This document shows, one piece after another, positions 4,784 through 45,800 of a stretch of 64,000 nt of DNA (position 1 is the first letter of the stretch; the number at the start of each line of letters is the position of its first letter). The DNA is from Telopea speciosissima (Eukaryota; Streptophyta; Magnoliopsida; Proteales; Proteaceae). The translations under genes and the position numbers were made by a program. The DNA lies in contig NC_057925.1 in assembly GCF_018873765.1 (NCBI RefSeq), positions 10,303,568 through 10,367,567 on the forward strand, in the 5' to 3' direction. The notes beneath the pieces are model-generated. The model searched no databases. It was not told where the DNA came from and saw only the letters and a program-made list of their open reading frames with translations.

Positions 4784-4861
4784 ATGAACTGTGGAATCGT
4801 TAAGGGTTTCTATTGTTGGGGTTGGGAGTTCTTAATTTCCAATCTTCTCTTCTCCCACTAG
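4784..4861 (+). promoter_or_regulatory. Upstream ORF in the HSFB3 leader (25 codons)
   Basis: The only ATG between the TATA box and the HSFB3 start opens a 25-codon ORF ending in TAG at 4859-4861, 68 nt before the main ATG. The peptide is aromatic and hydrophobic (MNCGIVKGFYCWGWEF...). Other class-B heat-shock factor mRNAs, such as TBF1/HSFB1 of Arabidopsis, are translationally controlled by upstream ORFs. A similar role here is inferred. The leader may instead be spliced, since GTAAGATC begins at 4861. Confidence 0.5.
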
Positions 4862-4929
4862 TAAGATCACCTTCTTCCTTCTCCTAATTAATCACTTTTT
4901 AAGAATAAAGAGAATTAGGACAAGCCAAC

Positions 4930-6246
4930 ATGGTTCAGGCAATCTCTGAGGAAGAAGAACATGAGTTGGGTTTGTTAGAATATGTTAGAAGATCTTCTCC
5001 TCCACCATTCTTGTCCAAGACTTACATGCTTATCGAAGATCCGAGCACCGACGACGTAATCTCATGGAATTCTGATGGATCTTCTTTCATAGTATGGAAA
5101 CCTGCTGAGTTCTCAAGTGATCTCCTTCCTACCCTCTTCAAGCACTCTAATTTCGCGAGCTTCGTTCGACAACTCAATACTTATGTATGTGTTCTTCAAC
5201 CTTAACAAATTTTCCTCTTTTTGTTTTCTTTTTGAAGAAAGAAGAAGAAACAACACAAAAACACAATCTTGAGCTATGAAACCCCCCAAGACTGAACAAT
5301 ATAAGTCTTGTTCTTAAGGGTATTTGATCCTAACTTCAATTAGGGCATTTAGTCCATCTTTTAAGATTTCTTTTTTTTCACACATGATAGATAGTAGCAC
5401 AAAAAGCCAATTTACCAATTATATCGCACCCCGAATTTCCTTTGAAGTTTTTCTTTACCCAAATTGCATTAATTCACTTTGAATTTGATCTCGACTTGTT
5501 AGTCTATCTTTTAAGATTTCTTTCTTTCCACACATAATAGAGAGTAGCACAGAAAGCCAATTTACCAACTATATCGCACCCCGAATTTCTTTTGAAGTTT
5601 TTCTTTACCCAATTGGGTTAATTCCCTCACAAGAGGGAGGGGAGATCTAGTGAATAGCCAGCACTTGCGAAGCACCCCTTTATTAAATGAATTGAGAGAA
5701 GGGACGCTCAAAAAACAGATGCTCTACAACCTAATTAGGTTTCTCTATTCTCATGGCTTAAGAAACTGTTATTATTGTATGTAGGGATTCCGAAAAGTCA
5801 CGACGAACCGGTGGGAATTTTGTAATGACAAGTTCCGCAGGGGTGCGAAGGAATTACTAAGCGAAATAAGGAGAAGAAAGGCATGGACAAGTAAGGGTAG
5901 TACTAATGCAACTACACAAGCCCAAACTGCACCACAAGAGTCTGATGAAGAGCAAGGATCGACATCGTCGATGTCGTCCGGTTACAACAGCCTCTGCAAT
6001 GAAAACAAGAGGTTGAAGAGGGAGAATGGAGCCTTGAGCTCAGAGTTGGTGAATATGAAGAAGAAATGCCAAGAACTTCTTGATTTGGTGGCTGTTTTCA
6101 CTACTAGTTCAAAGAATGATATAGAAGAAGATAAAAGGCCTAAATTGTTTGGAGTAAGGTTGGGGGTTCCAATAGTGGAAGGGAAGAGAAAGAGGGTAGA
6201 AATTACTGAGGGTCTTCAGATTTTATTATCTCAATCATGCAAATAG
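4930..6246 (+). CDS. HSFB3: Heat stress transcription factor B-3 (class B HSF)
   Basis: Two exons, 4930-5184 and 5785-6246, encode 238 residues. The 600-bp intron has GTATGT and GTAG ends and splits the DNA-binding domain between VRQLNTY and GFRKV, the conserved HSF intron position. The DNA-binding domain covers about residues 24-118 (PPPFLSKTY to the basic RRRKAW). A short linker leads to a leucine-type oligomerisation coiled coil at about 150-190 ([17 protein letters not shown]) without the class-A insertion. Near the C-terminus are the KLFGVRLGV repressor motif and a basic GKRKRVE nuclear signal. It should bind heat-shock elements in the nucleus as a trimer and act mainly as a repressor or co-regulator. 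The short length and domain order fit HSFB3 better than the longer HSFB2 or HSFB4. The start is the first ATG after the upstream ORF. AATAAAAATT at about 6259 could be the poly(A) signal. Confidence 0.93.
5351..5627 (+). repeat. Tandem duplication inside the HSFB3 intron
   Basis: About 128 bp starting AGTCCATCTTTTAAGATTTC at 5351 is repeated from 5501 with about 90% or better identity by eye (period 150). The two copies make up nearly half of the 600-bp intron. Neither copy disturbs the splice sites. Confidence 0.8.
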
Positions 6247-6733
6247 TAACATGTATTAATAAAAATTAAAGTAGTAAACCACTTACAAGCAAGTGGATTA
6301 ATTATGATCTAATACCATTTTCTAATTGGGTTTTGACAATTAGATATAATGGTAAATTAAAATGTCAGCTTAAGCATGTCTGTAAGTATATGCTAAAAGC
6401 ATTTCAATATCAAAAAACTTATTTACTGTATATCTGTGGTACTCATTCTAAGGCTCTGTTTGGTTACAACAACATTGGGGTTTTTGGTAGCTGCAAAACT
6501 CCTATTTCTTTGAAATTTTTTTCTTTGCCTTGGCTTTTGATGCTTCTTTCTAAATATTCTATAAAAAAACAAAATCTTTCTGAATAGGGAGGTTTCTCAA
6601 TTCTAGGTAGTGTTAGTTGGATCTTTTGTTCTTTAAAGTTGATTTGGGTACTAGTTGAATCTCTTAAGTGGGACCCATCTAAGGGTGGGGATTGAATCAG
6701 CTGGAATTCAGATTGAAATTGATCTGGAATAGG

Positions 6734-19400: not shown

Positions 19401-22140
19401 ATAGGTATAGGTAAATTGATTGACTGATTAATTGATGGAGAAACACACACAGAGGAAGCAGTATAGACACACAAGTGTCGTTAAGCAAGGATATCAAGTA
19501 GGCCCTTTTACCCCCTCCTAGATCACATGCTCTATTTTGTTCCTTCTATTTCCTGAAGTTTTGAGGTGCCCAAGTCACCAGGCAACACTGCCAAGGCATT
19601 CTGATAACACTGTCTGAAAGAGAATTTTCATTTAATCATTTTACACATTGTTGGACTTAAGTCACCAAATTACATTCTTGGAACTCTTCCCAGGAACAAA
19701 ACAACAAATAAATAGAAAAAAGTGCAAAACCACCAAATTAAGTCCATAACATGAGCCCTCTTAAACCATATCACGCGGTAAGTTGGAAGATAAAGCTTCT
19801 ATAAATATTGGTGACAATTTTAGAATATTGTTAGTACTTGTATAACTTATTATTTTCTTTTTGTTTCCTCTCTATTAAAAGTAAACATGGAAAATCAATG
19901 GATAGTGGATGGGATCCAGTTAACCATTAGGAGTGAGGTGAGATAACTACTTGAGATTAGGATAGTGGGATTAGGATAACTACTGTTGTAAGTGCTATGC
20001 AACATCTCCAGCAGCAGGTACTTGTGGTTTGGCACTCCTAATCAGCCTATCTCTTATTCATCTCTTATTATCTATTTCTTCTCACCTTCTTCTCATCTTA
20101 AGATAGCGAAGCGAGGGAAAACTCTGCACATACCAGCCTTAAATTGAATTTGTCAACAGGCAACAGACTCCAGTATCAATGGATATCAAACTCCACAACT
20201 TTACATGGACTTGAGGGAGTTGAAGCATGGAAACAAGGATCCAGCCCTGAGTTGCCCAAGCATCTCCACCTGATATAGTGCAAATCACGGCAAAAAAAGG
20301 CATTATATGGCAAAAAAACTGAAATAGATTAATTTAGGTATCAAATGTTTACATTTCAAAATTTTCAGAATAAGAAATTGACCCACTTTTTAAATTATTC
20401 TTATCAAAGTTCTGCAAACGATTCCGACATTCCGTATTTTTTGGCCCAAATAATTCACAGGGGCCATTTTTTGGAGTTCAGAATTTTCAGACTAAATTGT
20501 TTGTGGAGTCTCTGGAAAAAAAAACCCACAACTTTTTCAAGCAGGGGTATTCTGACTTGAAGTCACTTGCTAGTTGAAAATTAAATTCCACTCCTCATGA
20601 GAATAAAAAAATAGAATATGTAAGACCAGTAACGTGTAGAAGCATCAATATAAGCCCCACGATACCAAACTAGTATAGCATTCACCATAGAAGAAAGAGG
20701 GGCAGGGTGAAAAAAAAACAGAATAAAAGAAGAATCAGCATAAGTTTCTTCAATTCTCATAGAAATAAACCAAGCACAGTGAGCAAAAAATACAAGCATA
20801 GACTAGGTAAGCATTACTCAGCAAAAAACAACACAATACAATTAACAAAATACACCAGCAATGAACTAATATTCACATGAATGCTACAAAGAATTCTAAC
20901 CAAGAAAAGGGTTCAAAAATGAAGAACTACTACAATCTCCATTTCAACAACCAAATAGTTGAAAGAGATGTCATTCTGCAAGTAAAGCAATAGTTTCCTA
21001 CGTTGCATAGAACAGCAAAAAGAGGCCAAATATCAGAGAACAGCAAAATGCACAAAAAAAAAAGGGCCAATATACTACTCAGTTGCAAACAACATTATCA
21101 CTTCTGCCCACATTCGGTAATAGGTTGATCCCCAACTTACCCGGTACTACTTTGGGTGGATCTTCCTTCCCATCAGGGGCGCACGCATACTTCTGCCCCT
21201 TGTAAAAAACAAAATGCGGTGGTTTTGGGGCATATAAAGCTCCCTCAGGCAAATTAATGTAGCAACCAATAACATCCCCTTCCACATAGCCTTCTTCACC
21301 ATACTTCTCTCTCAGAGCCTTATGAATCTTACTCCCATCTATATCTCTATACCCAAAACTATTCCCATCGTACCCAACCGGCGCCTGCAAATCCCCCTTC
21401 TCCGTCGTCCACCCAAGCCTCGTATGACCAGTTTCCCCAAGCTTCGATACCTTAATTTCAAAATACCAAGCACCCTCAACAACCCCTCTCGTTGCCCTAA
21501 CCATTCGGTATCCTTTCGAACTCCCCGCAGACAAACGGTCGTCGCTGAGCTCAACTTTCTCAGCCTTGTAGACCTTGGAGAGGCAAATTTTGATGTCGGG
21601 TGTATCGTCGGTCTTGTCAGGGAACCGAGCCAATGGAGCTATAAAGACATTGTTTTCTGCAGTGACAGGGTTGGCATTGGATTTGCTCTTCTTCTTGTAC
21701 TTCCGTGATGATGTGCTCCAAACATTGTTGTTTTTCTTCTTGGCCTTCTTTATAGTCGTTGGCAACGCAGGTGCTGTTGGTGGGGTTAGCGTGATTATTT
21801 CCGGTGCCGCTTGCTCAGGTGGCATTGCTTCGGGGGCTTGGGAAATAAATGAAGAGAGGGGCTTTTGCTTCTTCTGCGGTGGATTTTCATTATCGTCGGA
21901 TATTGAGGTGGGTTTCGGTGATTGTTGGTCTTGTTCTTGGTGTAGGGTTTTCGAGGGTTCTTCGTCATTGTCGCCATCGGAGAGCTCCTCGGAGGCTTCT
22001 TGTTCCTGCTTTATATGGGTTTCTAAGTTATTTCCAGAAGGTTCAATGGTGACGGGTTGTGCTTCATTGACGAGTTCATTGTTGCTCCAATCTTCTTCAT
22101 CGTCATCGTCGTCCCTGTAAGCAGCTCTCAAGGTTTCCAT
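13424..22140 (-). CDS. TRO: TRAUCO / ASH2-like SPRY-domain protein (COMPASS subunit)
   Basis: Two exons on the minus strand, 22140-21141 (1000 nt) and 13689-13424 (266 nt), give a 421-residue product. The donor is GGTAAGTTG right after CCGG and the acceptor is CTGCAG. The phase-1 junction gives a continuous [11 protein letters not shown]. Residues 1-190 are acidic, low-complexity and lysine-rich. About residues 195-400 form the SPRY domain ([73 protein letters not shown]). The family is the plant ASH2L homologue, a core cofactor of nuclear H3K4 methyltransferase complexes with WDR5 and RBBP5 homologues. It is somewhat shorter than Arabidopsis TRAUCO, mostly in the N-terminal part. An ORF reading through the donor to 21079 is an artefact of the intron. 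The start is the first in-frame ATG. Confidence 0.93.
13690..21140 (-). other. 7.45-kb intron of TRAUCO
   Basis: The intron starts GTAAGT at 21140 and ends TGCAG at 13690. Apart from an L1-like fragment (18350-18990) and a 20-nt G run (18350-18369), I recognise little in it. There is a palindrome AATGGGCC...GGGCCCATT near 17158 and a piece at about 17040-17380 that resembles an LTR end but has no partner. Many short ORFs here have no family signature. Confidence 0.85.
18350..18990 (-). mobile_element. Probable L1-type LINE 3' fragment
   Basis: Minus-strand reading gives fragments of an RNase H-like C-terminus: a VEGNS block near 18775, then an [14 protein letters not shown] block near 18660-18625. 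Next comes a T-rich 3' untranslated-type region ending at the poly-C/poly-G tract. It is broken by stops. The match is weaker than for the other LINE tails in this window. Confidence 0.4.
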
Positions 22141-22634: not shown

Positions 22635-22683
22635 GTAGGGTTACAATCTTTTTGCCTTTATTGTTCATAAAGTTTAGAATAGG

Positions 22684-22960
22684 GGTGTAAGTTTGGCCCT
22701 GTCGGTCCAAACCCGCTCTGGCCTGCCCTGAGCCCAAACAGAGCCTGGGCTGAAATATCTTGGCCCCGAGGGCGGGTCAGGTCTGAAAATTTTTAACCCT
22801 GAGTCAAGATCGGGTTGGGTTAGGCTGAGCTTGGCCCGGTCCGGCCCGGCCCGGCCCGACCCGACCCAACCCTATTTTAAGTTATACTACAAAATATATA
22901 CCTAAACTGACCCGACCCGACCCTATGTTAAGTTATACTACAAAATATATACCTAGAAGG
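22684..22960. repeat. CCCGACCCGA-rich repeat with a 51-bp tandem unit
   Basis: GC-rich DNA made of GGCCCGGCCC and CCCGACCCGA words. It is followed by two copies of a unit containing CTATTTTAAGTTATACTACA (about 22868 and 22919) that share an AAAATATATACCTA tail. It is non-coding and lies just before the LINE. Confidence 0.6.
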
Positions 22961-23050
22961 TAATTCTTTGGTTTCTTTTTCTAGCTTTGCATATAACTAT
23001 CTTTACAGTTTATGATATATTTCTATCTCTTCATTGTTGTGTTTGTAGCT

Positions 23051-26000
23051 ATGATAATCCTTTCCTGGAATGTCAGAGGCTTACAAAGCTGTTTCACAAA
23101 GAAGTGCCTCACCCCTCATGTTAAAAAAAATAAATCCGATTTTATCTTTCTTTGTGAGACTAAATGTACCGATCACTCAAACATGGAATTCCTAGCACTT
23201 ACAAGCGGATGTCTCTCATGGACATATCAATAGCAAAGGTGCTAAAGGATTGAGTGGTGGACTTTGGGTTCTTGCCAACCCCATCATAAATCCATCGGTC
23301 ACAACTCTTGGCTCTCACTATATTGCCATCCTTGTACTGGACTTATCTGGTCAACCTTGGTTTTTAATTTTCCTCTATTCCCCCCCAACTCTTCCTTTTT
23401 CAAAACTTCCCACCCTCTAGGTCCAGACTTCATCAAATGTTTGTTCCCAAATTGCCTTCAGACCAATGTCTCAAACCTCCTATCCTCAGTCCCGAATTTG
23501 GATGAAATCAGATTAGCAATTTTTTCTATTGGTGCCTTTAAAGCACTTGGGGCTGATGGTTTTTAAGCCTGCTTCTACCACCAATTTTGAGACTTAATCT
23601 CCGGAGATGGATTGGCTATGGTTCATCAATTCTTTACTACTTTTGGTTTACCTAGGGGTTGTAATCATACCTTCCTTTGCATGATCCCCAAAAAAGAGAA
23701 TGCAACAAAAGTTTTTGAATTCAGACCGATCAACCTATGCGATGTATCTTACAAAATTCTTGCCAAAATCTTGACAAATAGGCTGAAGGGAGTTCTTCCT
23801 TCCATGATATCACCTTTTCAGACAACTTTTTTATCTGACCGGAAGACAAATTTCTGATAATATTATAGTGGCTTAGGAGATTTTCCATTATCTTTCTCAC
23901 AGGAAGAGGAAAAAAGGGTTTTGTGGTTATTAAAATTGATATGGCCAAAGCATATGACCGGGTGGAATGGAACCTACTCACTAAGATTTTCTCTTTCTTG
24001 AGCTTTAATTCATCTTGTATCTCGTTAATAAATACCCTTATTATCACTACTTCTTTTTCTTTTATAATTGGTGGAAGCCCATATGGATTTTTGAAAACCT
24101 GAAAGAGGCCTTCGGCAAGGATGCCCATTAAGTCCATATGTGTTCCTTCTTGCCATGGCGGTGTCCCGTCTTTTAGCCACCTACAGAGACCTTAACTCTT
24201 TCAAAGGCATCAGAGTGGCGAGGAATGCACCTGAGGTAACTCACCTCCTTTTTGTAGATGACACTTTTATTTTCTGTCGTACCTTTGAGGAGGATTTCCT
24301 TACTATAAAGTCCATTTTGGATCTATTCTCTGACATTACTGGACAGGAAATTAGTTTTGCTAAAAGTGAAATTTTCTTTAGTAAAAATGTCCCTACCACT
24401 CAGAGGAAAAAACTTTGCTCAGTCCTAAGTATATGTGAAATGTCCTCAAAATCCTCATACCTGGGTATCAGACTTTGCCACTCAAGATCTAAAGTTAAAG
24501 ATCTGGATTTCATTGTGAAAAAGGTACAATCTAAACTTGCAACTTGGAAATCTGGTTTTTTATCTTATGTTGGTAGAAGGATAATGATTCAATCTCTTAT
24601 CAAGAAAATTTGTAGATCTCTTGATTCAATTTGTATCAAATTTTGGAATGGTAATATGGGATCAAAAAAAAAAAAAAAAAAAGGCTGAATCAGCTGGGAA
24701 AAAAATATCTGTTCCCCTACCAGTAACAGTGGTCTAGGCCTTAGGAATGCTTTGATTCATAACCAGGCTCTTATCCTAAAATTAGGATGGAGACTTCTAA
24801 CTCATGAAGACTCGACATGGGCCAAAATACTCAAAGCCAAGTATTTTCCTAAAACCTCAGCCTTTGACCCAAAAACCCTGAAAAGAAGGGGTTCTTGGAC
24901 CTGGAACAGTATTTGTTCTTTACTCCCAACTCTGAAAACTTTCATTAGGAGGAAAGTGGGATCAGGTTTTAACACTAGTTGTTGGTTTGATCCTTGGATC
25001 CCCTCGATCCCAGGAAGATCCCTACCTCAGTCATTACAACCTTCTTTGACCAATCTCATCTCAATCTATAATTGGAACATGGATTTAATTTATGATCTTT
25101 TGCTTCGTAATTTTGGTACTGAAATTTTAAAAATTCCAATTTCAGACATTAAGGATCAATGGAGATGTACTCTTTCAAATTTTGGGCGGTTTTCCGCCCA
25201 ACTAGTTGCAAAATTCATTTTCAAATCTCACCATAGCCCCATCAGTACAAGATGGTGGCGATTTTTCTGCAAAATTAAGATACATCCGAAATTTAAAATA
25301 TTTTTTTGGCGTGTGTTAAATACAGGACTTCCTATCAAAGACGAGCTTAGGAAATGGGCGACGATCGATCCTACATGTTTATTATGTGGGGGTGTTGTGA
25401 TGAGTCCATGTGGCATCTATTCCTTTCTTCTGATTGGACTAAGCATATTTGGGCATCTGACCTTCTTGGATTGAGAACAAAGCTTCTCTCTAGTCCGTCA
25501 CTATCTCTTCTGTGTGATTCTCTATTAAGAAACAATGTGCTCCATAGACCGCCTAAGACTGATCCAAACTTTGATATTCGATATGTATCTAAATGGCTGG
25601 GTGATCTCACTATCACTCCACCATCTTTGTTTCCCTACCCCATAACTTCAATACAGCTTATGTCTTATTATAATCTTCCTGATAATAATATTGCTAACCT
25701 TGATGTTCAATGGCCTATCTTAATCTGCGCAGGCCTTTATGAACCGCACTTAAGAATAACAAGTTGGGCATTTTGCATTTTGCTAGATAGAAAGGTCATT
25801 CTAACATCTACAGGTACTTCACCGTCTATGACCAAAGAAGAAGTTGAACTATATGGATTCCTGGAAGAATGGAAAGCAGAAATAAGAAAACATATCAATC
25901 CCAATGAAGTCTGGTGTAGCAACATCTCCTTGAACAACTACCTCCATCCTTCTGACAACACCAGAATTCCTTGGAATATGATATCAAGTTTTTTAGAACT

Positions 26001-26181
26001 AGCAGACTTAAAAGTTCTCTACTGTCCATTTTGCTTTATGTATTGAACCATCCATATGTAATTATGTCGGCAAAATAGCTCTAGAAGCAATAGAAGGGAT
26101 AATACCCAGTGCCCTTCAAAGTCTGCACATGCACTTACCGTCTTAACTTTAATATGTTTACTTTTTCTATAAAAAAAAAAA
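23051..26181 (+). pseudogene. L1-type LINE ORF2 (dead) with poly(A) tail
   Basis: Domains run in L1 ORF2 order. The endonuclease N-terminus (ILSWNVRGLQ at 23054, FLCETK) is present but most of that domain is deleted. Then come reverse transcriptase blocks (FSIGAFKALGADGF, FRPINLCDVSYKILAKIL, IDMAKAYDRVEW) and the active-site region (THLLFVDDTFIF near 24240-24280). A zf-RVT region follows (WWRFFCKIKIHPKFKIFFWR, with CLLCG) and a degraded RNase H-like end at about 25.76-26.04 kb. Several stops and frameshifts are present, including one at an 18-nt A-run (about 24665-24682). The element ends in an 11-A tail at 26171-26181, where the next element is inserted. Confidence 0.85.
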
Positions 26182-26464
26182 GGGTAAATTATACGTCACC
26201 TTTTGGTTTTCAAACGAAATTTAGCTTGGTTTTTGAAAAAACTCAAATCACCCCCTCTACAGTAACGGTGTTAGTCTGCTATTAGGTATTGGTGTGAAAG
26301 GACTATTTTACCCTTATATTAAAACATTAAAATTAAATTTACAATACTACCCTTCCTTTATCTTCAACATTGGTCAAGGATAGTTTAGGGATTTAAATTT
26401 ATTTAACTGGCTGACATCATCACTTGACAACATAAAACTAACGGTAGGGACTAATTTATCATAT

Positions 26465-26856
26465 TGCGGTCTATAAACAGGATCAGAGTCCAACTCTAAT
26501 CCTACATGTGATACCGGCTCAACCAACACCTGTGCATCTACAACTCTTTTCTCCACCTCACCAAATCAGTCTAGATTCATTGATGAGTCAGCATCCATAT
26601 CTCCAAAGCTCAACGATAGTGCACAGCAGTGTTTTAGATTAACTAAATCACCATGTACTCAGCCTCATGTATATCAATATACTAATCCTCCTCTACATCT
26701 ATATAATCTATATAAAGGGAGGATTAGCAAGAATTAAATAAGTGAGAAAGTAAAATTACAGTGGAAGTTGGTTACAAATAACCGAACCACTTAACACCCT
26801 GTGTCGTTTCTCTTCTTCTTCCTCTCCTCATCTCTAACCTTCCTTCACTTTTAACA
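26465..26856 (+). repeat. 5' LTR of copia A
   Basis: About 390 bp, paired with 36120-36506. Landmarks are AACTCTAATCCTACATGTGA, a CTATATAAAGGGAGG promoter-like block, and an end in ...TTAACA. Compared with the 3' LTR there are about a dozen substitutions and one 9-nt insertion (a duplicated CTATATAAT). This suggests an insertion much older than copia B. The first ~15 bases are diverged and no target duplication could be read. Confidence 0.88.
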
Positions 26857-28271
26857 TGGTATCATCCGACCAGGGCTCCTTGGGATCTTCGAGAGCCCTT
26901 CCTGCGGGTACGATATCTATGGCATGGTTACCGACGACTCACGATGTCCACCGGAATTTATTTCTTCAGCAACTGAAGGCACAACTGATGCCACTCCCAC
27001 ACCTAACCCTGCATATCAGACATGGCAGCGACAAGATCAACTGCTCATGAGCTGGCTCATCTCCTCTTTAATTAACAGAACCAGTTCATGCTCACATAGT
27101 CGGCTGCACTACTTCTCATGAAGTTTGGACCACCTTGGAGCAATCATACAATAACATATCTGCTGCCCGTGTGTTACAACTGAGATTTCAGCTTCAAAAT
27201 ACCAAACGGGGCTCCTCCACCATTCAAGAATATCTCTTGCGCATAAAATGAATAACTGATTTACTTGCTGCCGCTGGGAAACCAGTATCCAATGAAGATC
27301 TCAGTCTATACACACTTATTGGCTTGGGTCCAGAATACTCCGCCTTTGTGACGTCAATGACCACGCATCGAGAGGCTGTTTCATATACTGATATGCGAAC
27401 CATGCTCCTTACCCAAGAGATCCGGCTGCAAGATGAACACTCTCTGCCTGAGGTAGCTATTCCAGCAAACACTGCTAGCACCAATACTGAAAATCGTGGG
27501 GGACGTCCCAATCGTGGCTATGGAGGATCACATGGTGGACGTGGTTTTTATCGTGGTGGCCGTAATGACCGCACTGGGTACCAGCGTACTCCAAATCAAG
27601 GTGCGCAACAGCCCACCACCCAAACTCTTGCTCCTAATACAAATATATGCCAGATCTGTAACAGGGTCAGTCATAAAGCTTTGGATTGTCGCAATCGGTT
27701 CAATCATGCATTCCAACCAGCTACCGACACCACGGCACCAGCTGCCAATTTGGTTGATTATTCTCGAACAGCACCACATAACAATAATGTTTGGTTCCCT
27801 GACTCTGGCGCAACGAACCACATCACTGCCGACCTCGATAATCTGACCATATCTACTGAGTACAATGGGCAAGATCAGGTTCAAGTGGGCAATGGTTCAG
27901 GTTTGAAAATTTTGCACACTGGCACATCTCATATTTGTTCTTCTTCTAAGTCGTTGGCTCTCCCTAATATTTTGCATGTGCCTATCATTACTCGAACTTT
28001 ATTATCTATTTCTCAATTCACAAGGGATAATAACGTAATGTTTGAATTTCATCCTGATAGTTTTTATGTTAAGGATCGCTGCATGGGGAGGTGCCTTCTC
28101 CAGGGAATCAGTAAGGGTGGACTTTACCAGCTGGCTATGAATACAGGTGGATCATCAAAAGCTGGCTCTACTCCACGTGCTCTAGTTGGTGAACGCACGT
28201 CTTTACATCAGTGGCACAACAGGCTAGGGCACCCAGCCCTTCGCATTGTTTGGCAACTAATTAGTGGATTT

Positions 28272-29931
28272 TGTTGGTCAACTGGGTCAACTGAGGTTTG
28301 CTGGAGTGGTGTTGTCATTGTTGGCAACCTTATTATTCGTATTGGTGATGCGGTAGTGGTATTTGATGAGCTGCAAGAGCTGAAACGGTCAAACAGTCAC
28401 CTACGCATCTATAAGGGTATTTTGATCATTTGGCAAGGTTACAGGGGTACCTGCACTTGAAGAACACCATTTAACAGTATATTAAGTCTTTATATAGTGT
28501 TTGGCAAAGGGCCGAAGCAGTAGGTGAAGGTTTCATACTGTTAAAGTTGTGATTTCACAGGTTCATGTTCATAGGTTCATGCAATAGTAGTAACTTTAAG
28601 GTCATTTTTGGAAGGTTTAATTGCATTTCTGGGTGAAGTAGTCTCCATGAGAAATGAAGTTCGTCGAGTCACGGTTCCAATGCAACTGGTATCACATCAT
28701 TTCAGTGTCGGACGAGAAAGTCACAGTTGTTTCCATGTTGACGCGCGAAAACAATACAAATCTGGAATAGGCAAAAGTTTTATACTTAGCCAATTTTTTG
28801 GTCGTTTTTTTTTTGAAGTGCTACTCTCAACAGAGGTGTCCCATTGTTTTATAAAATTATGGAATCTTGGTGGCCGTTGGATTTTTCTCATCACGTCGCT
28901 CTCTGATTGGCTTGCCCTTGATGGTGCACGGTGCTATGCGATACACCATAACATTGTTCCTTAAGAGAGTAGTACGGTTGTTGAAATTTGAATTCTGATT
29001 TGAGTAAGTGCTGTACAACTGTCACCTCTTTTGGAATGTGATCTCTTGGCAAATCTTATCGTGCCTTGCCAATCGTCACCAATATCTTTGAATATCATAA
29101 ATTCGTCCTCCACTTGCCATTTTTGTATCTTTCAACTTTGAAATGCAATATCTCTCTCATTCGGAGTCCAAATTAGTCGCCATTATTTTTGAAGGTGCAT
29201 ATTTTTTTCAAGGAGAACACAATGGAAATGTGAGAAAGAGCAGAAAAATTACAGAAACGTCAAAAAAAAAAAGAAAAACCTTACTTGAACAATTGAAGAT
29301 GCTGCTTTGAACATTGGAGATCGTGCATGACATCAGGCAGGCTTCGAGCAGTGGGTTAGTCACGGGATTACTCAGGGAGAGGTAATCTTTTGTTTCACAA
29401 GTCCTAGTTGATATTTAGGGTTTGATTCATGTTGAAAGAATCCTAATTTTTGTTCATGTGGGACTTGTAATTGAATTTTTATATTCATATTGTAATTCCA
29501 TTCAAGTTGGGGCTTGATTGGATTGGGGTTGTAGCCCTAGATTTTGTTGTTGAGGAGTCAGAAGCAGGTGTTGTAGCACCTGGGCTATTGTAGTAGTCAA
29601 ACTCGAGTTGAGTATTTGAGGAAATACGAAACCCTTACGGGTATTCTTCCGTGGATGTAGGCAGCTTGGCCGAACCACGTATATTTGGTATACTGTGTAC
29701 TTGTTATTTTGTTTTCGTATTCTTGGACTGTGTTTGCTGCAGAGTGGTGGTGCATTGTCTGGTAGACCTGGCCACACAGTGGTTACGAGGTGGACGTGCA
29801 TGTGTGATTGGTAATTACGGGACTGCCCTGGCCAATCTTTGTGTGTGATTGTTATTGCTATGGGATTGAGTTTGGAAGAATTTTTTAAGGCACTGATTCA
29901 CCCCCCCTTCTCAGTGCACATGGGATTATCA
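28272..29931. mobile_element. Solo LTR inserted in copia A (1660 bp, 5-bp target duplication)
   Basis: The inserted segment starts TGTTGG and ends ATTATCA (TG...CA) and is flanked on both sides by GATTT (28267-28271 and 29932-29936). It lies between the pre-integrase and integrase parts of copia A. Its right end (TTCACCCCCCCTTCTCAGTG, then CACATGGGATTATCA) resembles the 3' end of large plant LTRs. No gag, pol, primer site or second LTR lies inside, so it fits a solo LTR left by LTR-LTR recombination. The family (large-LTR copia or gypsy) is not certain. Its ORFs are not recognisable. Confidence 0.8.
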
Positions 29932-31200
29932 GATTTAATTTACCTTTGAGTTCTCAATCAGATTTTAGTATTTGTAATGCCTGTCAGCAAGGCAAGAGTC
30001 ATAAGTTACCATTTTATTCATCATCTAATCGTTCTAGTCGGCCATTGGACCTCTTATATTCTGATGTTTGGGGTCCCTCTCCCATTCCTTCTTCGGCAGG
30101 ACACCGTTATTATGTTCATTTTGTTGATGATTACAGCAAATTTATCTGGTTATTTCCACTTACAAATAAGTCCGATGTATTGCCTGTATTTATCAAATTC
30201 ATGAATCTTGTTGAGAATTTGTTTGACAGGAAAATCAAAAGGTTACATAGTGATTGGGGTGGAGAATACAGGTCTGTCTCCAAGTACTTGGCCAACAATG
30301 GCATTGAACATCGACTCTCTTGCCCACATACTCATGAGCAGAACGGTTCTGCTGAAAGAAGACACTGCCACATAGTTGAAATGGGTTTAGCCCTGATGTC
30401 TCATGCTGGTGTTCCTAAGTCCCATTGGAACCACGCGTTTGCAACGGTAGTGTTCTTGATTAATCGGCTTCCCACTTCAGTAATTGGAAATGTCTGCCCT
30501 ATTTACAAGTTGTTTGGCACCAAACCCGACTATAAGACCTTGCGGGTGTTTAGGTCGGCCTGCTATCTGCTATTGCGACCATTCAATAAGCATAAGCTTG
30601 ATTACAGATCTGAACTACATGTGTTTCTCTGGTACAGTTCCCAACATAGAGGGTACACCTGTCTCAACATGCGCACACATAAAATACTTGTTTCCAGGCA
30701 TGTCATTTTTTATGAAGACCGGTTCCCATTTAAAGAGGTTGTAGTACCATCACCATTGGCCCACTCATATTTGCCATCATCCATTCTCGATCCACCTCCA
30801 ATGCTACCCACCATCTCACCTCCCATTACAGCCACCTCCCCTCCATTATTATCTCCCCCCCACCACTACCCCACCTCCCACCATCTCCTCTCAACCACCA
30901 ATCTCCACAACCATGGTCTTACCTCCACCAAATTCTTCATCATCTCCATTATCATCACACCTCCCCCACCACTAACCCATCTCCCCTCCGCCACCGAACC
31001 CCACATCCACGGTTTCATCTCCACCGAACTCATTACTACCTCCCCCTCCACCACTACTACCATCCATCTCCCACCATCACATGATAACCCGGACCCTTGA
31101 TGGCACACGCAAGCCAAAAACATTCCTTAGTACCAAGTACCCTATACCGGTATGTATGCTCACTGAAGCAGCATCTCAAGCATTGGAACCCACGTGTTAC

Positions 31201-34200
31201 CAAGGATTTAAGTCTCAGACAGTATCGTATCGTCTCGGCCGATACGTCTCGGTATCGATCGTGGTCGATACGATACAGGTCGAGACGTATCTTTTTTTTT
31301 TTAAAAATGCAAATGTCTCGACTATATCGAGACTTATCGACCGAGATGTACTGATACGATACGATACGATCGATACATATCGATACAGCCGAGAGTTTTT
31401 TAAAATATTATTTTATTATATTTAAAAAATGATACGTATCTAGACGTATCGAGTCATCTCGATATGTATCGATATGTATCGACCGATACATACCGATACA
31501 TATCGAGACGACTTGATACGTCTCAGTACGCGTCGTTAACTTAAAAAACACATGGCCATTTTATTCTTGTCACCTGTTGGCCTTAGTAGAGCAACCAGTA
31601 TGAAGGGGATGTTTGACCGGTTTACAAAGAGTGGTAAGGGTAAGAGAAAGAAGAGCCCAGATATCAGAGACATGGATCCTAATGTCTATAGACCAAGGGA
31701 TGCTAGCCAACAGAGGATTGAAGAAAGCTTTCAACCCAAAACACTTAGTAAAAGGATAGGTAGAGCAATCTCCAGATGGTTCCACAGTTCTATGATTCCA
31801 CCACATAAGGCCAAAGATCCCCACTTCAAGGCCATGGTAAAGGAGATTCAGCGGTGTGGGAAAAATATTAAGCCACCCACACCTCATGAGATTGCTGGGC
31901 CTTACTTGGATGATATTGTCCAAGAGGTGCATGAGTATGTGGAGAGGTTCAAGGAGAAGTGGCCACTATATGGAGTGACCATCATGTGTGATAGATGGAG
32001 TGGACCAACAAGATTATCCATCATCAATTTTCTTATCTACTGTGATGGAAGGGCGATCTTCCACAAGTCGGTCAATGCATCTAGTGAAATCAAAGATGCC
32101 AATTACTTATACAAGTTAATGGATGAAGTTGTGGAGGACATAGGAGAAGAAAATGTTGTCCAAGTAGTAACTAACAATGCAGTAAATTTCAAGAAGGCTG
32201 GTCAGTTGCTTATGTTAAAGAGGCAACATCTATTTTGGACACCATGTGCAGCTTATTGCATAGATTTGATGTTCAACGACATAGGAGAATTGCCCAAGGT
32301 CCAAAAGTTGGTTGGTAATGCAAGAAAAATCACCAACTTTATTACAACCATAGTTGGGTTTTGGCATTGATGAGGAGTTACACACAAGGGGATTTAGTGA
32401 GGCCTACAACAATAAGATTTGTAACAAATTACATTGCAATTGATAGCCTCATTTCCCGAAAGCATGGACTGCTACAGATGTTCACCTCTACTGAGTGGTT
32501 GACTAGCAATTATGCAAGGTCTGAAATTGGGAGATTTGTTCAAGATCTTGTCACCTCCTCAAAGTTTTGGGCTGCGATGGGCCGACTTTATAATGTTATG
32601 ATGCCACTCTTTTGTCTGCTTCGAGAGGTTGATGGGGATAAAGAGCAGACCATGGGTAAGATGGTAGAAGCCATAGGATGTGTGAAGAGAAAAATACATG
32701 AGAATAACTCAACATCAAACAAGAAGTATTTGAAGATTATATCCGATCGATGGGAAAATATGTTGGTTCAAGATGTTCATTGGGCAAGTAATCTTATAAA
32801 TATATGACTTTGGTTTCATTTTAAACACTTAGTAGTTAGTAAGTTACTATTTATTTATTTATTATTAGAATTTCTAGGTTTCTAACCATCCATTACAAAC
32901 CATGTGCAACATATTATTTGAATCCGGATATCCAATACTCCAATGATATAGGGTGTAGACCGGATCTATTGCATGCCCTAAGGAATGCTGTGAACAAAAT
33001 GGAGCCAGATGTAGAGAAGGCCACACTTGCCATGGATGAGGTTAGAGCTAAAGTAGTTGTATAAATGATTGAAACCAAGAATAGAGTGATTGGTGGAAGT
33101 GGAACTAATATTTTAATTTTTTTAATACCTCTCTAGGCTAAGTATTTTCGGGAGGCCACTCGTGGTTTTGCTAATAGAATGGCTATCCATGCTAGGAGCA
33201 CACAACGCCCAGGTAAGTTAGGTTTACCTAATTTATTATATCATTTAAAATTTATTTTAAGGTTTTGTCTTTTAATATTTCATTTATTATTGTGTAGCTG
33301 ATTGGTGGCTCAATTATGGGGGTACTAGTGCTCCACACTTAACCCGAATTACAATTCAAGTGTTATCCCTAACGGCATCCTCTAGTGGCTGCGAACGTAA
33401 CTGGAGTACATTCGGGTTGATACACACCAAACCCCGGAATCGTCTCAGTTATTCAAAGTTGGAGAAGCTAGTGTATGTCCATTACAACATGAAGCTGAAG
33501 CTTAAATATTTAAAGCTGGAAAGAGAAGGAGATGATGTAGATGTCAACCCAATCGACATCAACCACCTACTTGACGATGAAGATCCAGTTAGAGTATGGA
33601 TAAAGGATACTGATAAGGTATTGGTGATGGATCAATTAAGTGAGGATCGCCAGACAACCAAACTTGATCCAGTGATAGAGAGCATCATTCAACAGATGGA
33701 TGAGGATGCAACACAGCCACCATCATAAGATCCTTGTCCTAATGTTGAAGAAAATGAAAGTAGCTTTAAAGAAGGTTTAGTCAGGAGGACGAGGTCATAC
33801 ATTGTGCTGGGGTTCAGTTCACATGTGAGGTAGGATACACACATACTACCCAAGATATGGATCATGGTCCTGAGCTTGCTGGCCATAAGACTTACTCGCG
33901 GAAGCCGCATAAGGGCAAGTTTGCCAAGTGCTCCCACAATCCACATGATAGTGATGTGCTTATGAGTGGCATGGAGTCACTTAGCATTAGTTCTGATTAT
34001 GTTGGTGCTTCATCAGGCCATGGGCATTATGCATCCGGTTCTTCTTCAGGCTATGGACATGGGGCTTCTGTAGGGTATGAAAGTTATGGATACGGAGAGA
34101 ATCAAGCACAAGCACGACCTAGTGCTTTCGTGACATTAGCCACTCTAGAGCAGTACACACGATTCTACTATGAGTGGGAGAGTCACTACCATCAGTATTT

Positions 34201-34586
34201 TGGCTAGGCTCAATATTGTGCTTATGTTCGGACAGTACACAACATCATCCTAGTCGCTCCTATTGTTGAAGACCCTTACAGACATGACTTTGACCCACCC
34301 CAACATTTTTCATGGCAATAGAGTGACTCTATATGTAAGCAATTTCATCTTTTAATCTTTTATAACAATTTCAAAGTGTCGCACTTGTCTAGTTATTGAT
34401 TATTCACAATTCTTAGTATATATGCATGATAAATGACACAAATTGCTTGTTTATATTATTTTTTGTGTCCAAAAGTGTATTTTCATGTGTATTTTGATCA
34501 TTTTTATGTGCTTCTGCACCAATCGATATGTATCTCTGGTACGATACGATACGATAAGATACTTGATACCGATACTTAAATCCTTG
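31201..34586 (+). mobile_element. hAT-superfamily DNA transposon (TIRs, 8-bp target duplication)
   Basis: The ends are CAAGGATTTAAGTCTC (31201) and its near-perfect inverse GATACTTAAATCCTTG (ending 34586). Flanks are CGTGTTAC (31193-31200) and CCTGTTAC (34587-34594), an 8-bp target duplication with one mismatch, the hAT hallmark. Interior: a transposase pseudogene on the plus strand. The subterminal regions (31214-31545, 34535-34575) are packed with CGATACGTATCG-like words. Length 3386 bp. It sits in the copia A pol region between integrase and reverse transcriptase. Confidence 0.93.
31552..34207 (+). pseudogene. hAT transposase (DUF659 / hAT-C dimerisation), inactive
   Basis: The N-terminal part (31552-32340) carries a lysine-rich segment and a DUF659-type domain (IAGPYLDDIVQEV, VTIMCDRWSG, TPCAAYCIDLM). 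A frameshift near 32340 leads into the next block (SYTQGDLVRPTTIRFVTNYI, to 32807). Possible introns separate a middle block (about 32880-33063, then about 33137-33213) from the hAT C-terminal dimerisation domain (33360-33500: LTASSSGCERNWSTFGLIH, NRLSYSKLEKLVYVHYN). The tail (33857-34207) is Gly/Ser/Tyr-rich. No BED zinc finger is visible at the N-terminus. The frameshift and a stop near 33062 argue that it is not functional. Confidence 0.88.
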
Positions 34587-36109
34587 CCTGTTACACATCT
34601 GCCTCTAAACATCCTCAATGGCGCACTGCCATGGATGCCGAGTTCAATGCCCTAGTTCAGAACGACACCTGGACATTAGTTCCACCACCTCTACAAAAGA
34701 ATATTGTCGGGTGTAAATGGGTTTACCGTATCAAGCGCCATGCCGATGGGTCAGTTGAGCGCTATAAAGCCCGTTTAGTGGCGAAAGAGTTTCACCAGCA
34801 AGAAGGCCTGGACTACACAGAAACTTTCAGTTCAATAGTCAAGCCCACAACAATACGTCTTGTGCTCTCTTTGGCTGTATCCAAGGGATGGGCTATTCGT
34901 CAACTTGATGTGCAGAATGCGTTTCTACATGGCATCCTAAAGGAAGAAGTCTATATGACTCAGCCACCCGGCTATATGGATTTGAAGTTTCCAAATCATG
35001 AGTGTCGCCTACATAAGTCTCTGTATGGACTTAAACAAGCTCCCTGAGCATGGTTTGATCGCTTGAGTGAGTTCCTCACAAATTTTGGGTTTATTGGCTC
35101 CAAAACTGACACATCGTTGTTTATTTACGGCACTGTTGCGACAACTATGTACCTCTTGGTCTACGTTGATGACATCATTCTTACAGACAACAATGACAAT
35201 TTTATGACTGGGTTTCTCGACTGCCTTGCCAAGACCTTCGCAATCAAAGACCTTGGCAATCTCCATTATTTTTTGGGAATTAGTGTGCACAAACGACCCC
35301 ATGGACTTCTACTCTCTCAGCGGTAGTATATTTTAGACCTGCTTGATCGGACTCAAATGACTGGTTGCAAACCCATCTCAACTCCTGTATTGCCATCCCA
35401 ATCATTGTCACGCATCGGAGGCACACCAATGGATGATCCTACATTATATCGGAGCGTGGTTGGGGGTCTTCAATATGCCACTCTAACACGCCCTGATATT
35501 GCATTTGCAGTCAACAAGGTATGCTAGTTCATGCACAGTCCTAGCACCGATCACTGGTCTGGTGTGAAGCGTATATTGCGGTACCTAAAGTCCACCATTG
35601 ATCATGGTCTTTATCTCCACAAGCAGCCCCACTTATAGCTCTCTGCCTATTCTGACGCTGACCGGGCTGGTTGCCTAGATGACAGGAAATCAACGGGTGG
35701 TTTTGCCATGTATCATGGCGATAATCTCATTTCATGGAGCTCTCGTAAACAGGCAACTGTGGCATGGTCAAGTACAGAATTTGAGTACCGAGCCATCGCA
35801 AATGCAGCAACTGAACTCACCTGGCTACAATCTCTGTTAAAGGAACTTGGTATCTACATGGCACATGCACCAGTACTCTGGTGCGACAATGTTGGTGTCA
35901 CATACTTAACTGCAAACCGATTTTTCATGCCCGCACGAAGCATGTGGAAATTGATTTCCATTTCGTCCGAGATAAAGTTGCAAAGGACGATCTCACTGTT
36001 CGATTCATCTCCACCAAGGACCAAATTGCGGATATTTTTACAAAGGCATTACCCACTAGGTGATACACCTATCTACTATCCAAGCTCAAGGTTCAGCCCA
36101 CCTTGCCCT

Positions 36110-36119
36110 TGAGGGGGCA
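36110..36119 (+). promoter_or_regulatory. Polypurine tract of copia A
   Basis: TGAGGGGGCA lies directly before the TG of the 3' LTR, the usual plus-strand priming site of LTR retrotransposons. Confidence 0.75.
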
Positions 36120-36506
36120 TGTAAACGATAAGGATACAGGACCAGAGTCCAACTCTAATCCTACATGTGATAACGGCTCAACCAACACCTGTGCATCTAC
36201 AACTCTTCTCTCCACCTCACCAAATCAGTCTAGATTCATTGATGAGTTAGCATCCATATCTCCAAAGCTCAACGATAGTGCACATCAGTGTTTTAGATAA
36301 ACTAAATCACCATGTACTCAGCCTCATGTATATCAATATACTAATCCTTCTCTACATCTATATAAAGGGAGGATTAGCAAGAATTAAATAAGTGAGAAAG
36401 TAAAATTACAGTGGACGTAGGTTACAAATAGCCGAACCACTTAAAACCCTGTGTCGTTTCTCTTCTTCTTCCTCTCCTCATCTCTAACCTTCCTTCACTC
36501 TTAACA
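36120..36506 (+). repeat. 3' LTR of copia A
   Basis: 387 bp, from TGTAAACGATAAGG to CTCTTAACA, paired with 26465-26856. It ends only 327 bp upstream of the AUG2 start codon and about 216 bp upstream of its TATA box. It contains a TATAAAGGGAGG block that could in principle drive read-out transcription toward AUG2. Confidence 0.9.
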
Positions 36507-36721
36507 TGGGAACCAGGGATTGATTTGAGTTGTTTCAAAAATCAGGGGGTGATCTGAGTTTCGTTTGAAAATCAGGGGGTGATATGTAATTTACCCAAAA
36601 AAAAAACCGAGAAAGAGAAAAAAAGGAAAAAGAAGAGGCTAGATGGTCATTTGAAGTTTTAACTTTTGAGCCACTCAGGATTCAGGAGTCAGGAGTCAGG
36701 ATCGGTTGAGGGAATCGGCCG

Positions 36722-39800: not shown

Positions 39801-42800
39801 AGGTTGTGGAAGTTCTTAGTTGTCCTAATTCAGAGAAATGTTCGAATTATTTGATGGGTGAAAGGTAGCAGGATGGATGTGTAGCCAGGCTTGGCAGCAT
39901 GGCCCACTTATATCTGCCTGGTGGCAGCTCATTTAAAGCTCAAATTTGGTAGAAAGGTTGGTCCCATTTTTCTCCTTTTTCCTATAAAATTTCAGCCCAA
40001 TCTGAATTTTACACAGAAAAAGAGGGTCAAAATTTAGCTAAAAGGTCAAAGATAATGAACAAAATAGGTTGGCCACTGGAAATACCCAAGGAACAATCCG
40101 ATACAATTGCGCCATATGATGGAGTAGACCACCAAACTTGACACTTGGCTAATCCAAAGTGGACCCTACCTATCCATATGGTTGGGACTTTCTAAATCAT
40201 GTTCCACATGGCACAAAGCAGGTGGGCCGTTTTACCAAGCCTAGCAAGCTAGCACACATCTGTTGTGCTACATTTTTCACTTTCAGGTTTCAAGCTGTCA
40301 AGTTATTTCTGGAAATCCATTACAGTTAGTGTTTGGATGGGTTGTGATTTTTACAGCTAAGGCTTGCCTTATTTCAAAGGTGTGAGCCTCATACAATAGT
40401 TGAAAAATATGCCTTTTCTGATCAAAATGTTCTCAATTTCTTTAGTATTGTTCAAACTGACACTCCATTAATTATATTTAACATATTTTGCACTTTTAAA
40501 ACCCTATGGAGGCTCCATTTCTCATTAAAGCTTTCTAGTGGTGAACTAGTGATATAGGACAGCATTAGATTTTGTCTTGTTAAGATGAGTGAATTATTTA
40601 GGCAAAACCTTCTAAAATAGGGTAAGCAGAGAGAGGTTCTGCTTTTGATAGTATAAGGGGTCAGCAAAGAAGAGAAGAGTAGTAGAATCAGCATAGAAGG
40701 GAAGGTAACAAAAGATAAACTAGGGTTTTATTGAAGATCTACGTTTTAGAGAGAAATAGTGCATGTTTTAAGAAAAAATGAAAGAAGAGAAATTGGATAC
40801 TGTTATAGGACTCTGAACTGAAACTATAGAGGAAGGGGCTGGAGAAGAAACTACTAAGAGAAGAAGAGAATGATTGTTGTTCTACCTCTTCTCTATCAAT
40901 CACTATGCGGGTCCACGGCTGATTGGTAAAAATCATAAGCCCCTGATCACAGCTTGAATTTCTGTTGTTGGAATTTGCTATCCTAATGTGTTGGAATATG
41001 TAATCCAGAATACCGTGGGGGTATTCTGCTCCTTTTGGGGTTAGTTTATTTATTATGTTATTAGGTACAGTCAGCTATGTGGGTTTTAGTCCCACATCGC
41101 CTATCAGTCCCTTTGCAACTTTCCCCTCTATTATAAATAGAGGGGCTTACCTATCAATGAATCTAAGTCATTCCGTTCTCTCAATAGTCTTCTTCCATCT
41201 TCTCTTCTCTCTTTTCTCCTCTCTGAAGTTACTGTTTAGGGTTTTCTACATAATGGGACCTGAGAACAACAATAAATGTTACCAATATGATCCTTCAATG
41301 CTCTATGAATTCCTGTTGGGCCTGGATCTCCAGAGCTACCCCATCAAAATTTAACTTAACCAGAGAGGTAGACGGAGCTTTATTTCATGTGATATCCTCT
41401 CTTTAGACAGTCTAGATCTGACCACATTTCTCCACTCAAATGGAATCAGAACCTTTCTTGGTTGGTTTCCAATGAGCTGCCCAAATCATGATGGTGTTCA
41501 AATGAATTACTTGCCAATCTGCTTTCCTCCCTAAAGATCCAATTGCTCCTTTCCTTCGAAGGGCGCCATAAAAGCTCCATAAAACATAAAATCTTCCTCC
41601 TTTTTCCAGGTGGGATGGATTTTTGGAACCAAGCTAAGTCAAGGAAGTCTAGAGGTGAAGTCCAGCATACTGTGACAAGAACGAGGAAGTAATACCATAC
41701 TTCCTTTGCAGAATAGGAATTAGTAAACAAGTGCCTTACAGGTTCCACATACTTGCAAAATTGACACATCTGAATTTTTATCCTACGACTTCCCGAAATG
41801 AATGTTGCCATTTTTATTGGTTGTTTAGACAAATTGAGGGACTATGAAAGAACAGAACTAATCATTCCATGAAATGATTGCCTTAAGTTTCAGTGTTCTG
41901 ATGCCTTGCCTCATACTTTTACCTTTAGGAGACTGATCAAGGCAATCTCTACCTGAACATGTATCTTCATCTAACTTAAACGGGCTTTGTCGAGTCTCGA
42001 AACCTATATCTTTCGTTTGTAGTTTATTCGACTCTTGAATGTTATTAAACAAAGAAACTGCTAGTTATCCGCTGTATTATTCATGTGATTTTGTTTTGGC
42101 CCTTATCTTATCCTTCATCCCTTCCTCAAAATTTAATTTTTGTCCTTTCACTCTCACATTCTCTTTTTCTGCTTGTATCATGATTTCTTAACGTAGTCTT
42201 TTCTATGAATGATGCTTTTGTTGGCCAGGATCGCATCATAGCTCGACTTCAACAACCATATTCACTAGACTGCATCCCAGTGGAAGCAGAATATCAGGTA
42301 TGTTAAAACCTCAAAATTAACACGTCTTATTCTATATCATGGTTTCACTTTTGATCTCCAAATGTATTATTGGTATTTTTTAAAATTTTCCATTAAATCT
42401 CTTAGATTGGTTAAGTAAGCCACTAAAGTTGGTGTAACTCCTAGATATGCACTGCTTATACCTCTATATTGATTACCTTATTGTAGCTTTGCTTATGATC
42501 TACCTAAAAGATACCTTAAAGTTTCATCTTCTGAAGGATGCTAAACCGGGCAGTGCTTATTTGGGTTTAATTCACATGTACTGACAAATTATGGTTCTAT
42601 TCTTGCAGAAGGAATTCTCAGAATTATTGCTCATGGCTGCTAGTGATTATGGGGCCCTTACGGCATCTGTTGCAGATTTTCAGTGGAGCCAGAATTTCAA
42701 GGAGCCACCATCTGTATGGGGGGTATGTTTATGCAAACATTTCAGAATCTTATCTTACTATAATGAGTTGATAGACAGTCATAGCCTGAAGCAATGCGTT

Positions 42801-45800
42801 AGAAATACCAATCTCACTCTCTCTCTTTTTAAGCTGAGGTACATCATTTATTTTCCATTCTTGGTATAAGTTTGAGAGTAAAACTGATAATCAGAAAAAA
42901 CCTAAAATGGATATTGTACTGTTGCATCTCACTATACTTGAATAGGAACATCTTAATAAAATAAAAAAAAGTTCAAGAGAGGGGGGCACAAACCTTTCCT
43001 GCATCAAAGTCTGGAACAGCCAATTAACCCCATAAAGCCCAATCTCTTGGGCAGATTAAAGCTAATCACCTTTATTTATATGGTAGTCTTATTTTTGTCT
43101 GAAGCCTCCCCCCCAGTTGGATTTTAGGTTAAGAATGTAGGTAAGAGAAGAGGAAGAAGATGGAGGAGAGGAAGAGAAGAAGAAGAGAGCAAGAGAATGA
43201 AGGAACAATATTTCGGTTGTAATGTTAGGTTATGTGAGAAAGATCTCTCCACACCTATATTGATTCATTAGTAGAAGTAGAATTACATACACCTCCCTAA
43301 GGAGGTAAACAGTAAAAAAGGTAAAAAGATAGAAATTACATATTAAGGCAACTAGTCAACAGGCTAGTCCCCAAACTACCCTTAGAACATAACTACTAGT
43401 AACTCTAACACTCCCCCTCAAGATGGAGAATATATATCATGCATTCCCAGCTTGCTTAAGAGAGTACTAAACTGAGGAAAAGCAAGAGCCTTGGTGAAGA
43501 TGTCTGCCAGCTGATCACCAGTCTGCACAAAAGGAGTACAAATGCAACCAGAGTCTATCTTCTCCTTGATGAAGTGCCTATCAACCTCAATGTGCTTAGT
43601 TCGGTCATGTTGGACTGGATTGTGGGCAATACTGATGGCAGCCTTGTTGTCACAGTAGAGTCTCATAGGGCCTTCAGTATCAAAACCCAGTTCCTGAACA
43701 AGCCTTCTCAACCATATGAGTTCACAAACACCATGAGCTATAGCTCGAAATTCTGCCTCTGCACTGGATCTGGCAACAACATGTTGTTTTTTGCTTCTCC
43801 AAGTAACCAAATTACCTCCCATAAAGGTACAATAGCCGGAAGTAGATCTCCTGTCTGTAATGGAGCCTGCCCAATCAGCATCAGTGAAGCCTTCCACTCT
43901 TAAGTGATTGTGTCTGGCATACAACAGTCCTTTCCCTGAAGAAGACTTCAAATATCTAAGAATGCGATACACATCATCTAAGTAGCCACTCTTGGGAGCA
44001 TGCATGAATTGGCTCATCACCCCCACTGCATAGGAGATATCTGGACGAGTCATAGCAAGATATATAAGCTTCCCCACTAGCCTTTGGTACTTTCCCGCAT
44101 TAACCAAAGGAGAACCACAATCTTCTCCCAGTTTATGATTCTGCTCAATGGGAGAATTTGCTGGTTTGCAGCCTAACATCCCTGTCTCTGTCAACAAATC
44201 AAGAACAAACTTCCGTTGACATATGTTGATTCCTTTCTTGGTTCTTGATACTTCAATTCCTAAGAAGTACCTCAAGGGGCCCAGATCTTTGATCTCAAAC
44301 TGCTGTGCTAGGTAGTTTTTCAGTTTCCTATCTCAGTTATATCATCCCCTGTGACCACAATATCGCCAACATATACAATGAGGGCTGTAATAGTACCATT
44401 GCTTCGCTTGGTAAAGAGGGTATGATCAGCTTGACTTTGGGAGTATCCATTCTTCAGAATAGCCTGTCGGAAGCGCTCAAACCATGCCTTGGGTGATTGT
44501 TTGAGACCATATAGTGCCTTCTTGAGAAGGCATACTTTCCCTATAGCTGAAGGCATTTTGAAGCCTGGAGGGGTTTGCATGTACACTTATTCTTCCAAAT
44601 CACCATGAAGAAAGGCATTCTTCACATCTAACTGGTATAATGGCCAATCATTATTGGCAGCCATAGATAAGAGGACTCTTATAGAATTGTGCTTGGCCAC
44701 AGAATTGTACTTGGCCACAGGAGCAAATGTCTCCTGATAGTCAATCCCATAAACTTGACTGTACCCCTTGGCAACCAACCTTGCTTTGTATCTTTCAACA
44801 CTGCCATCAGATTTATACTTGATGGTATAGACCCATCTGCATCCAACTGGGACACGTCCCTTGGGAAGGTCCACCAATTGCCAAGTACCATTCTTCTCAA
44901 GGACCATCATCTCCCCAGACATAGCTTGTCTCCACTTTGGGTCAAACATAGCATCAGTGACATTCCTGGGAATAGAGGCTGTAGAAAGAGTAGTAATAAA
45001 GGCCATACTTGTAGGAGAAAGAGCATCATAAGAAATAAACTGGGCTATAGGATTAGTGCAAGCTATTTTCCCTTTTCTAAGAGCAATAGGAAGGTCTAAA
45101 TCACATGGAGGAGAAGGGATGTCACCTGACTGAGAGTGATGAATCTCAAGATGTGGATCTGGATCCAAAGAGGACTCTTGGTAAGTCTGCTTTCGTTGAT
45201 TATGTATGCCTTCACCTTTTTTGTATGTAATGTGGTAATCCTTCTCCTTACTAGGACCACTTTCAACCACCAATTCTGTATTAACCACATCCACAGTCTT
45301 GTATGTACCAATGTCAAACATAAAAGGAGAGATAGGGAGAGGAGAATGAAAGAAATCAGCAGCCTGTTCACTTCCACACTTCTCCCCCTGAAGAGGATGC
45401 TGAGAAGGGACGAAGAAAGGAATAGATTCAAGGAAGGTGACATCCTTGGAGATAAGACACCGGCGAAAAGAAGGATGGTAGCACTTGTAACCCTTGGTAG
45501 TAGAAGAGTACCCAAGAAAGAGACACTTGAGAGCCTTGGGATCAAGTTTAGTGCTGGCAGATTTGTTAACATGCACATAACAAACGCAACCAAAGACCTT
45601 AGGGGGAAGAGAGAAAGCAGAAACCTTGGGAGATAAGATATCCAAGGGAGATTTGTAGTCAAGAAGTCTGGTAGGTATGCGATTGATGAGAAAAGAGGCA
45701 GTGAGAAGAGCAACAGACCAAAAAGTCTTGGGGACATGCATACCAAACAAGAGACTACGGGTGACCTCCAATAAATGGCGATTCTTCCTCTCAGCAACCC

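Follow-up and report, generated by a model that had tools for sequence, protein, structure and literature searches.

Location and Content of the Nest

The window analyzed here is a 64,000-nucleotide stretch of the Telopea speciosissima genome (contig NC_057925.1, positions 10303568–10367567). Within it, a cluster of transposable elements is flanked by a SPRY-domain gene (21079–22140, minus strand, 7.8e-12) and a HAUS2-like augmin subunit gene (exon at 42591–42869, plus strand, 1.2e-13), which are apparently arranged head to head. The first exon of the HAUS2-like gene presumably starts near 36834, approximately 230 bp from the nest, if the protein begins where we take it to begin. A direct repeat of approximately 309 bp is also present (43112–43417 and 48604–48912, 98.4% identity, 5.5 kb apart) and may represent the LTRs of a young element.

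The stretch from 26171 to 36606 is a genuine four-level transposon nest in which the order of insertion is legible. Coordinates of all parts are given in Table 1.

Table 1. Parts of the nest, listed by position in the window.
Feature	Position	Strand	Basis
LINE (layer 1), degenerate, L1-type, 3' part; reverse-transcriptase and zf-RVT remnants; poly(A) 26171–26181	22944–26181	+	Homology to L033, Pfam, tail of L010
Mutator-type MITE (layer 2, 380 bp), left part with left terminal inverted repeat	26182–26471	+	Joined alignment, 8 of 8 copies, L002–L008
Copia A (layer 3) 5' LTR, starts TATAAAC; 11-bp gap relative to 3' LTR	26472–26856	+	LTR alignment
Copia A interior segment 1, Pol_BBD; primer-site-like TGGTATCA at start (by eye)	26857–28271	+	Pol_BBD 2.4e-13
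Solo LTR (layer 4), TGTTGG..ATTATCA; GATTT at 28267–28271 and 29932–29936	28272–29931	+	Ends, duplication, family matches
Copia A interior segment 2, integrase core and SH3-like domain	29932–31200	+	rve 1.8e-11, SH3_retrovirus 2.8e-22
hAT transposon (layer 4), TIR CAAGGATTTAAGT; DUF659 and hAT dimerization region	31201–34586	+	TIR, duplication, Pfam, copies
Copia A interior segment 3, RVT_2; polypurine-like stretch before 3' LTR (by eye)	34587–36119	+	RVT_2 1.2e-38
Copia A 3' LTR	36120–36506	+	LTR alignment, relatives
MITE, right part with right terminal inverted repeat	36507–36596	+	Joined alignment; inverted relative to 26182–26256
LINE, right part of interrupted poly(A) tail	36597–36606	+	Sequence; family duplication length and A/T make-up

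LINE and Poly(A) Tail

The outermost element has the features of an L1-type LINE: a poly(A) tail, and reverse-transcriptase remnants together with zf-RVT. The Pfam match to zf-RVT (1.6e-8) is above the cut-off and the match to RVT_1 (6.2e-5) is below it, while the piece at 23264–23566 has no Pfam match. Homology to the relative L033, located on C11, covers 22944–23216, 25022–25526, and 25526–26181 at 86–89% identity; the intervening part is absent from L033. L033 is the nearest long relative among the matches listed and is 87% identical over positions 1–607 of the 611-bp query.

The first-pass annotation had described A-runs at both ends of the nest as one interrupted tail. Both runs are present, with 11 A on the left and 10 A on the right. 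The nearest LINE copy (L010, at the same place as L033) enters its poly(A) at the same base as the LINE of the window, which identifies the A-run at 26171 as the LINE tail, and the reading of the two runs as a single tail is upheld.

No target duplication was found upstream of the LINE, and the position of its 5' end is indistinct. The best agreement between the flank after 36606 and the 5' junction is 6 of 13 positions, a level reached by 84% of random stretches. In L033, 13-mers at 5142 and 8001 agree at 11 of 13 positions and are a candidate target duplication of that relative. The 5' junction of the window LINE adjoins another repeat, with TATACCTA microhomology. This GACCCGACCC-rich repeat (22680–22951) belongs to a large family (40 of 2309 candidates scored) and may be a still older layer.

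Mutator-Type MITE

The inverted arms of the MITE (26182–26256 and 36596–36515) align over 82 columns with 74% identity (E 8.7e-8), giving the element terminal inverted repeats. When compared with the opposite arms of other copies, the left arm is 77–83% identical (six copies) and the right arm is 88–91% identical (seven copies, L008 aside). No coding sequence was seen in the 380 bp of the element.

The two parts were joined as a 378-bp query, the inner boundaries of which deviate by one and three bases from those given in Table 1. All 8 of the copies compared, in seven loci (L002–L008), align with the joined sequence through the junction. This shows that the outer ends, proposed earlier to belong to one element, do so. 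Five copies align over the whole length, at 89% (L004 and L003), 87% (both copies in L007), and 79% (L002), and the L005 copy is 89.5% identical up to position 375. The L006 and L008 copies align only in part and look deleted or rearranged. The two copies in L007 (1097–1477 and 1524–1903) stand in tandem, separated by approximately 46 bp and sharing their 9-bp flanks, AATCAAAAT; they are perhaps the product of a segmental duplication.

Ends and flanks were examined at 38 distinct MITE loci, including 34 (L046–L079, three at the same places as L006–L008) that were used for this purpose only. Both ends were not shown in 6 loci, and the other 32 hold 33 elements. A 9-bp target duplication is exact in 19 of these 33 elements, has one mismatch in 3, and has two or more mismatches in 11. 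Left and right flanks paired from different copies gave an exact match in 6 of 1056 cases. The exact duplications are 94% A/T. The family has at least 43 matches (40 of 2525 candidates scored).

The candidate 9-bp duplication of the window copy (left 26173–26181, right 36597–36605) lies inside the two A-runs. These flanks fit the A/T-rich duplication of the family, of which a duplication of nine A in a poly(A) tail is to be expected. It is quite unlikely that the family favors retrotransposon poly(A) tails beyond its general A/T preference and that LINE tails repeatedly start nests in this genome; the copies were found with a query containing the A-run, which biases the share of A-run sites toward such copies.

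Copia A

Copia A has the Ty1/copia layout, with the integrase ahead of the RVT_2 reverse transcriptase between two LTRs and the domains in copia order. The last open stretch (35708–36112) has no Pfam match. The 5' LTR is 385 bp long and the 3' LTR 387 bp, and a BLAST alignment of 383 columns shows 94.5% identity between them. Of 376 sites compared, 13 differ, seven by transition and six by transversion, which gives a Kimura distance of 0.035. The alignment contains three gaps, one of which is the trailing base of the interval used.

In relatives with visible ends, the family LTR starts with TGTAAAC and ends with TAACA. The 5' LTR of copia A starts with TATAAAC and has the 11-bp gap relative to TGTAAACGATAAGGAT in the 3' LTR. 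A 5-bp target duplication is not recognizable (CGGTC on the left, TGGGA on the right), and aligning both flanks to MITE relatives did not reveal one. We read this absence as decay, the start of the 5' LTR itself being altered.

Six copia-related stretches were fetched for comparison, four of which have no match at either inner insertion site. Segment 1 is 80% identical to L083 and 74% identical to L084. L084, on C7, carries an insertion of its own near the start of the integrase core (4721–6388, approximately 1.67 kb), with 352-bp inverted repeats that are 89.5% alike.

Solo LTR and hAT Element

The solo LTR lies between the Pol_BBD and integrase-core domains of copia A. It has TG..CA ends and an exact GATTT duplication, and paired copies are found elsewhere. 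At least 41 further matching rows were obtained for the family (40 of 945 candidates scored). Among the matches listed, at least 12 same-strand pairs occur within 10 kb, so members with paired LTRs exist. Of the family members, one is followed by what we take to be a primer-site-like sequence and one is preceded by a presumed polypurine-like stretch (L025 and L030). The solo-LTR site is spanned by two of the six copia-related stretches, L083 and L084, and is uninterrupted in both, where segments 1 and 2 are contiguous.

The hAT element has a short TIR, CAAGGATTTAAGT, and an 8-bp duplication, CGTGTTAC (31193–31200) and CCTGTTAC (34587–34594), that agrees at seven of eight positions. Its transposase domains were identified by Pfam as DUF659 (1.1e-54) and Dimer_Tnp_hAT (8.4e-6), and the stretch between them (32361–32807) has no match. 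The hAT site is spanned by one of the six stretches, L084, in which segments 2 and 3 are contiguous and the site is uninterrupted; L083 has no match there.

At least 39 other hAT copies are 95–97% identical over approximately 2.2 kb (40 of 2530 candidates scored), and these 39 scored copies suggest a young family. Three collinear matches on C3 (34135474–34139251) cover both ends of the window copy. Positions 1–205 are matched by only one listed row besides that of the window itself. Judged from neighboring match rows, the window copy is without a stretch near 33798 that its relatives carry, the length of which varies among copies from approximately 100 to 310 bp. Many CGATACGTATCG-like inverted repeats are present at the left end of the element (31201–31572).

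Order of Insertion

The joined-flank alignments, uninterrupted relatives, and target duplications support the order first proposed from inspection of the sequence: the LINE, then the inverted-repeat element (the MITE), then copia A, then the solo LTR and the hAT element. Which of the last two came first cannot be read. The nest is almost certainly an ordinary cluster built by at least five successive insertions, as follows. A LINE was copied in with its poly(A) tail, the position of which is common to a relative. A non-autonomous Mutator-type MITE, from a family with a 9-bp A/T-rich target duplication, entered this tail, as the alignments and flanks show. Copia A then inserted into the MITE approximately 90 bp from the right end of the latter, as shown by the joined alignment. 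A longer LTR retrotransposon inserted into copia A, an event to which the duplication and unbroken relatives attest, and was probably reduced to a solo LTR by LTR–LTR recombination. At another site in copia A, a member of the young, high-copy hAT family inserted, as the duplication and the unbroken relative show.

The outer two layers would be exchanged if the MITE had come first and the LINE had later inserted into its left A-run. L1-type LINEs prefer A-rich targets, and the LINE duplication expected from the flank at 36607 is absent. A 13-mer at 22926, beside the LINE 5' junction, also matches the MITE start at 10 of 13 positions, a level attained in 0.42% of 46-bp stretches drawn at random from the window. 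However, this sequence recurs at 22877 as an upstream unit inside a genome-wide repeat family. With the row of the window itself excluded, 39 of the 40 rows listed for this repeat end at query positions 260–261 (22899–22900), just past the 22877 unit, and the remaining row, on C1, extends to query position 312 (22951), past the 22926 unit also. The sequence at 22926 is therefore part of an older repeat, and there is no need to regard it as a MITE duplication; the reversed order was rejected. The right A-run, moreover, is accounted for by insertion of a MITE into a tail. We consider it very improbable that the MITE preceded the LINE.

The outer ends might also come from separate MITE copies that a rearrangement brought together, given that the family is large and that copies can stand close together, as in L007. 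Against this, the two parts total 380 bp and, to within a few bases, meet at one and the same point when aligned to the family, their A-run flanks match, and the break is bracketed by the two LTRs of copia A. Such a rearrangement has a negligible probability, and unrelated outer ends were rejected because the joined MITE aligns through the junction with family copies. A single MITE, interrupted by copia A, is the reading adopted here.

Parts of the initial description need to be narrowed. The ends or target duplications of the inner insertions, said to be visible, are so for the solo LTR (exact) and the hAT element (seven of eight), but the 5-bp duplication of copia A is not recognizable. For this reason, and with a LINE that has no visible target duplication and an indistinct 5' end, "complete" is too strong a word for the stacking.

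Relative Ages

The distance to the nearest relative falls inward, from approximately 13% for the LINE to 10.5% for the MITE and 3% for the hAT element among the relatives compared, and the copia A LTRs differ by 3.5%. This fall agrees with the insertion order, with the nearest-relative distance being only an upper limit on age. The solo LTR is 8% from its nearest listed copy and is not datable by this distance. Substitution rates of 2e-9 to 1.3e-8 per site per year serve as illustration; at such rates, the LTR divergence of copia A corresponds to an age of about 9 to 1.4 million years. The suggestion that the nest provides a relative clock for several superfamilies holds as an order of four ranks, but the last rank is common to two insertions, and an internal divergence clock exists for copia A alone.

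Comparison with Known Nested Insertions

The ordering of LTR, LINE, and MITE nests by nesting is standard in plant genomics, as the portions of three reports drawn on here illustrate (PMC2672092, PMC3903597, PMC6911290). REANNOTATE, a tool that resolves the order of nested insertions, has been in print since 2008 (PMC2672092). The grass clusters treated in the relevant part of that paper likewise contain nested LTR, LINE, and MITE elements, ordered by nesting level and aged by LTR divergence, and the values that we take as nesting levels in the part of its table considered reach 3. The present nest differs from those clusters in its host, a member of the Proteaceae, and in its families, and in nothing of kind.

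Mutator-type elements interrupted by other transposons are described in a study of maize and rice, in the sections considered here (PMC3903597). Mutator-like elements were accepted there with duplications of 8–11 bp, LTR elements were the chief interrupters in maize, and more than one-third of the candidate coding elements carried nested insertions. Those are coding elements, whereas the interrupted element here is a 380-bp MITE. A survey of nested plant LTR retrotransposons covers 1491 pairs from 12 genomes (PMC6911290), each, like the solo LTR in copia A, an LTR element within an LTR element. According to the part of that survey used here, coding regions are not commonly targeted, whereas the solo LTR here separates the Pol_BBD and integrase-core domains of copia A.

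The nest contains nothing beyond known plant nested insertions. As a single locus it matters little, being one more readable nest and a worked example of insertion order. Its position between two genes shows how intergenic space can expand through repeated insertion.
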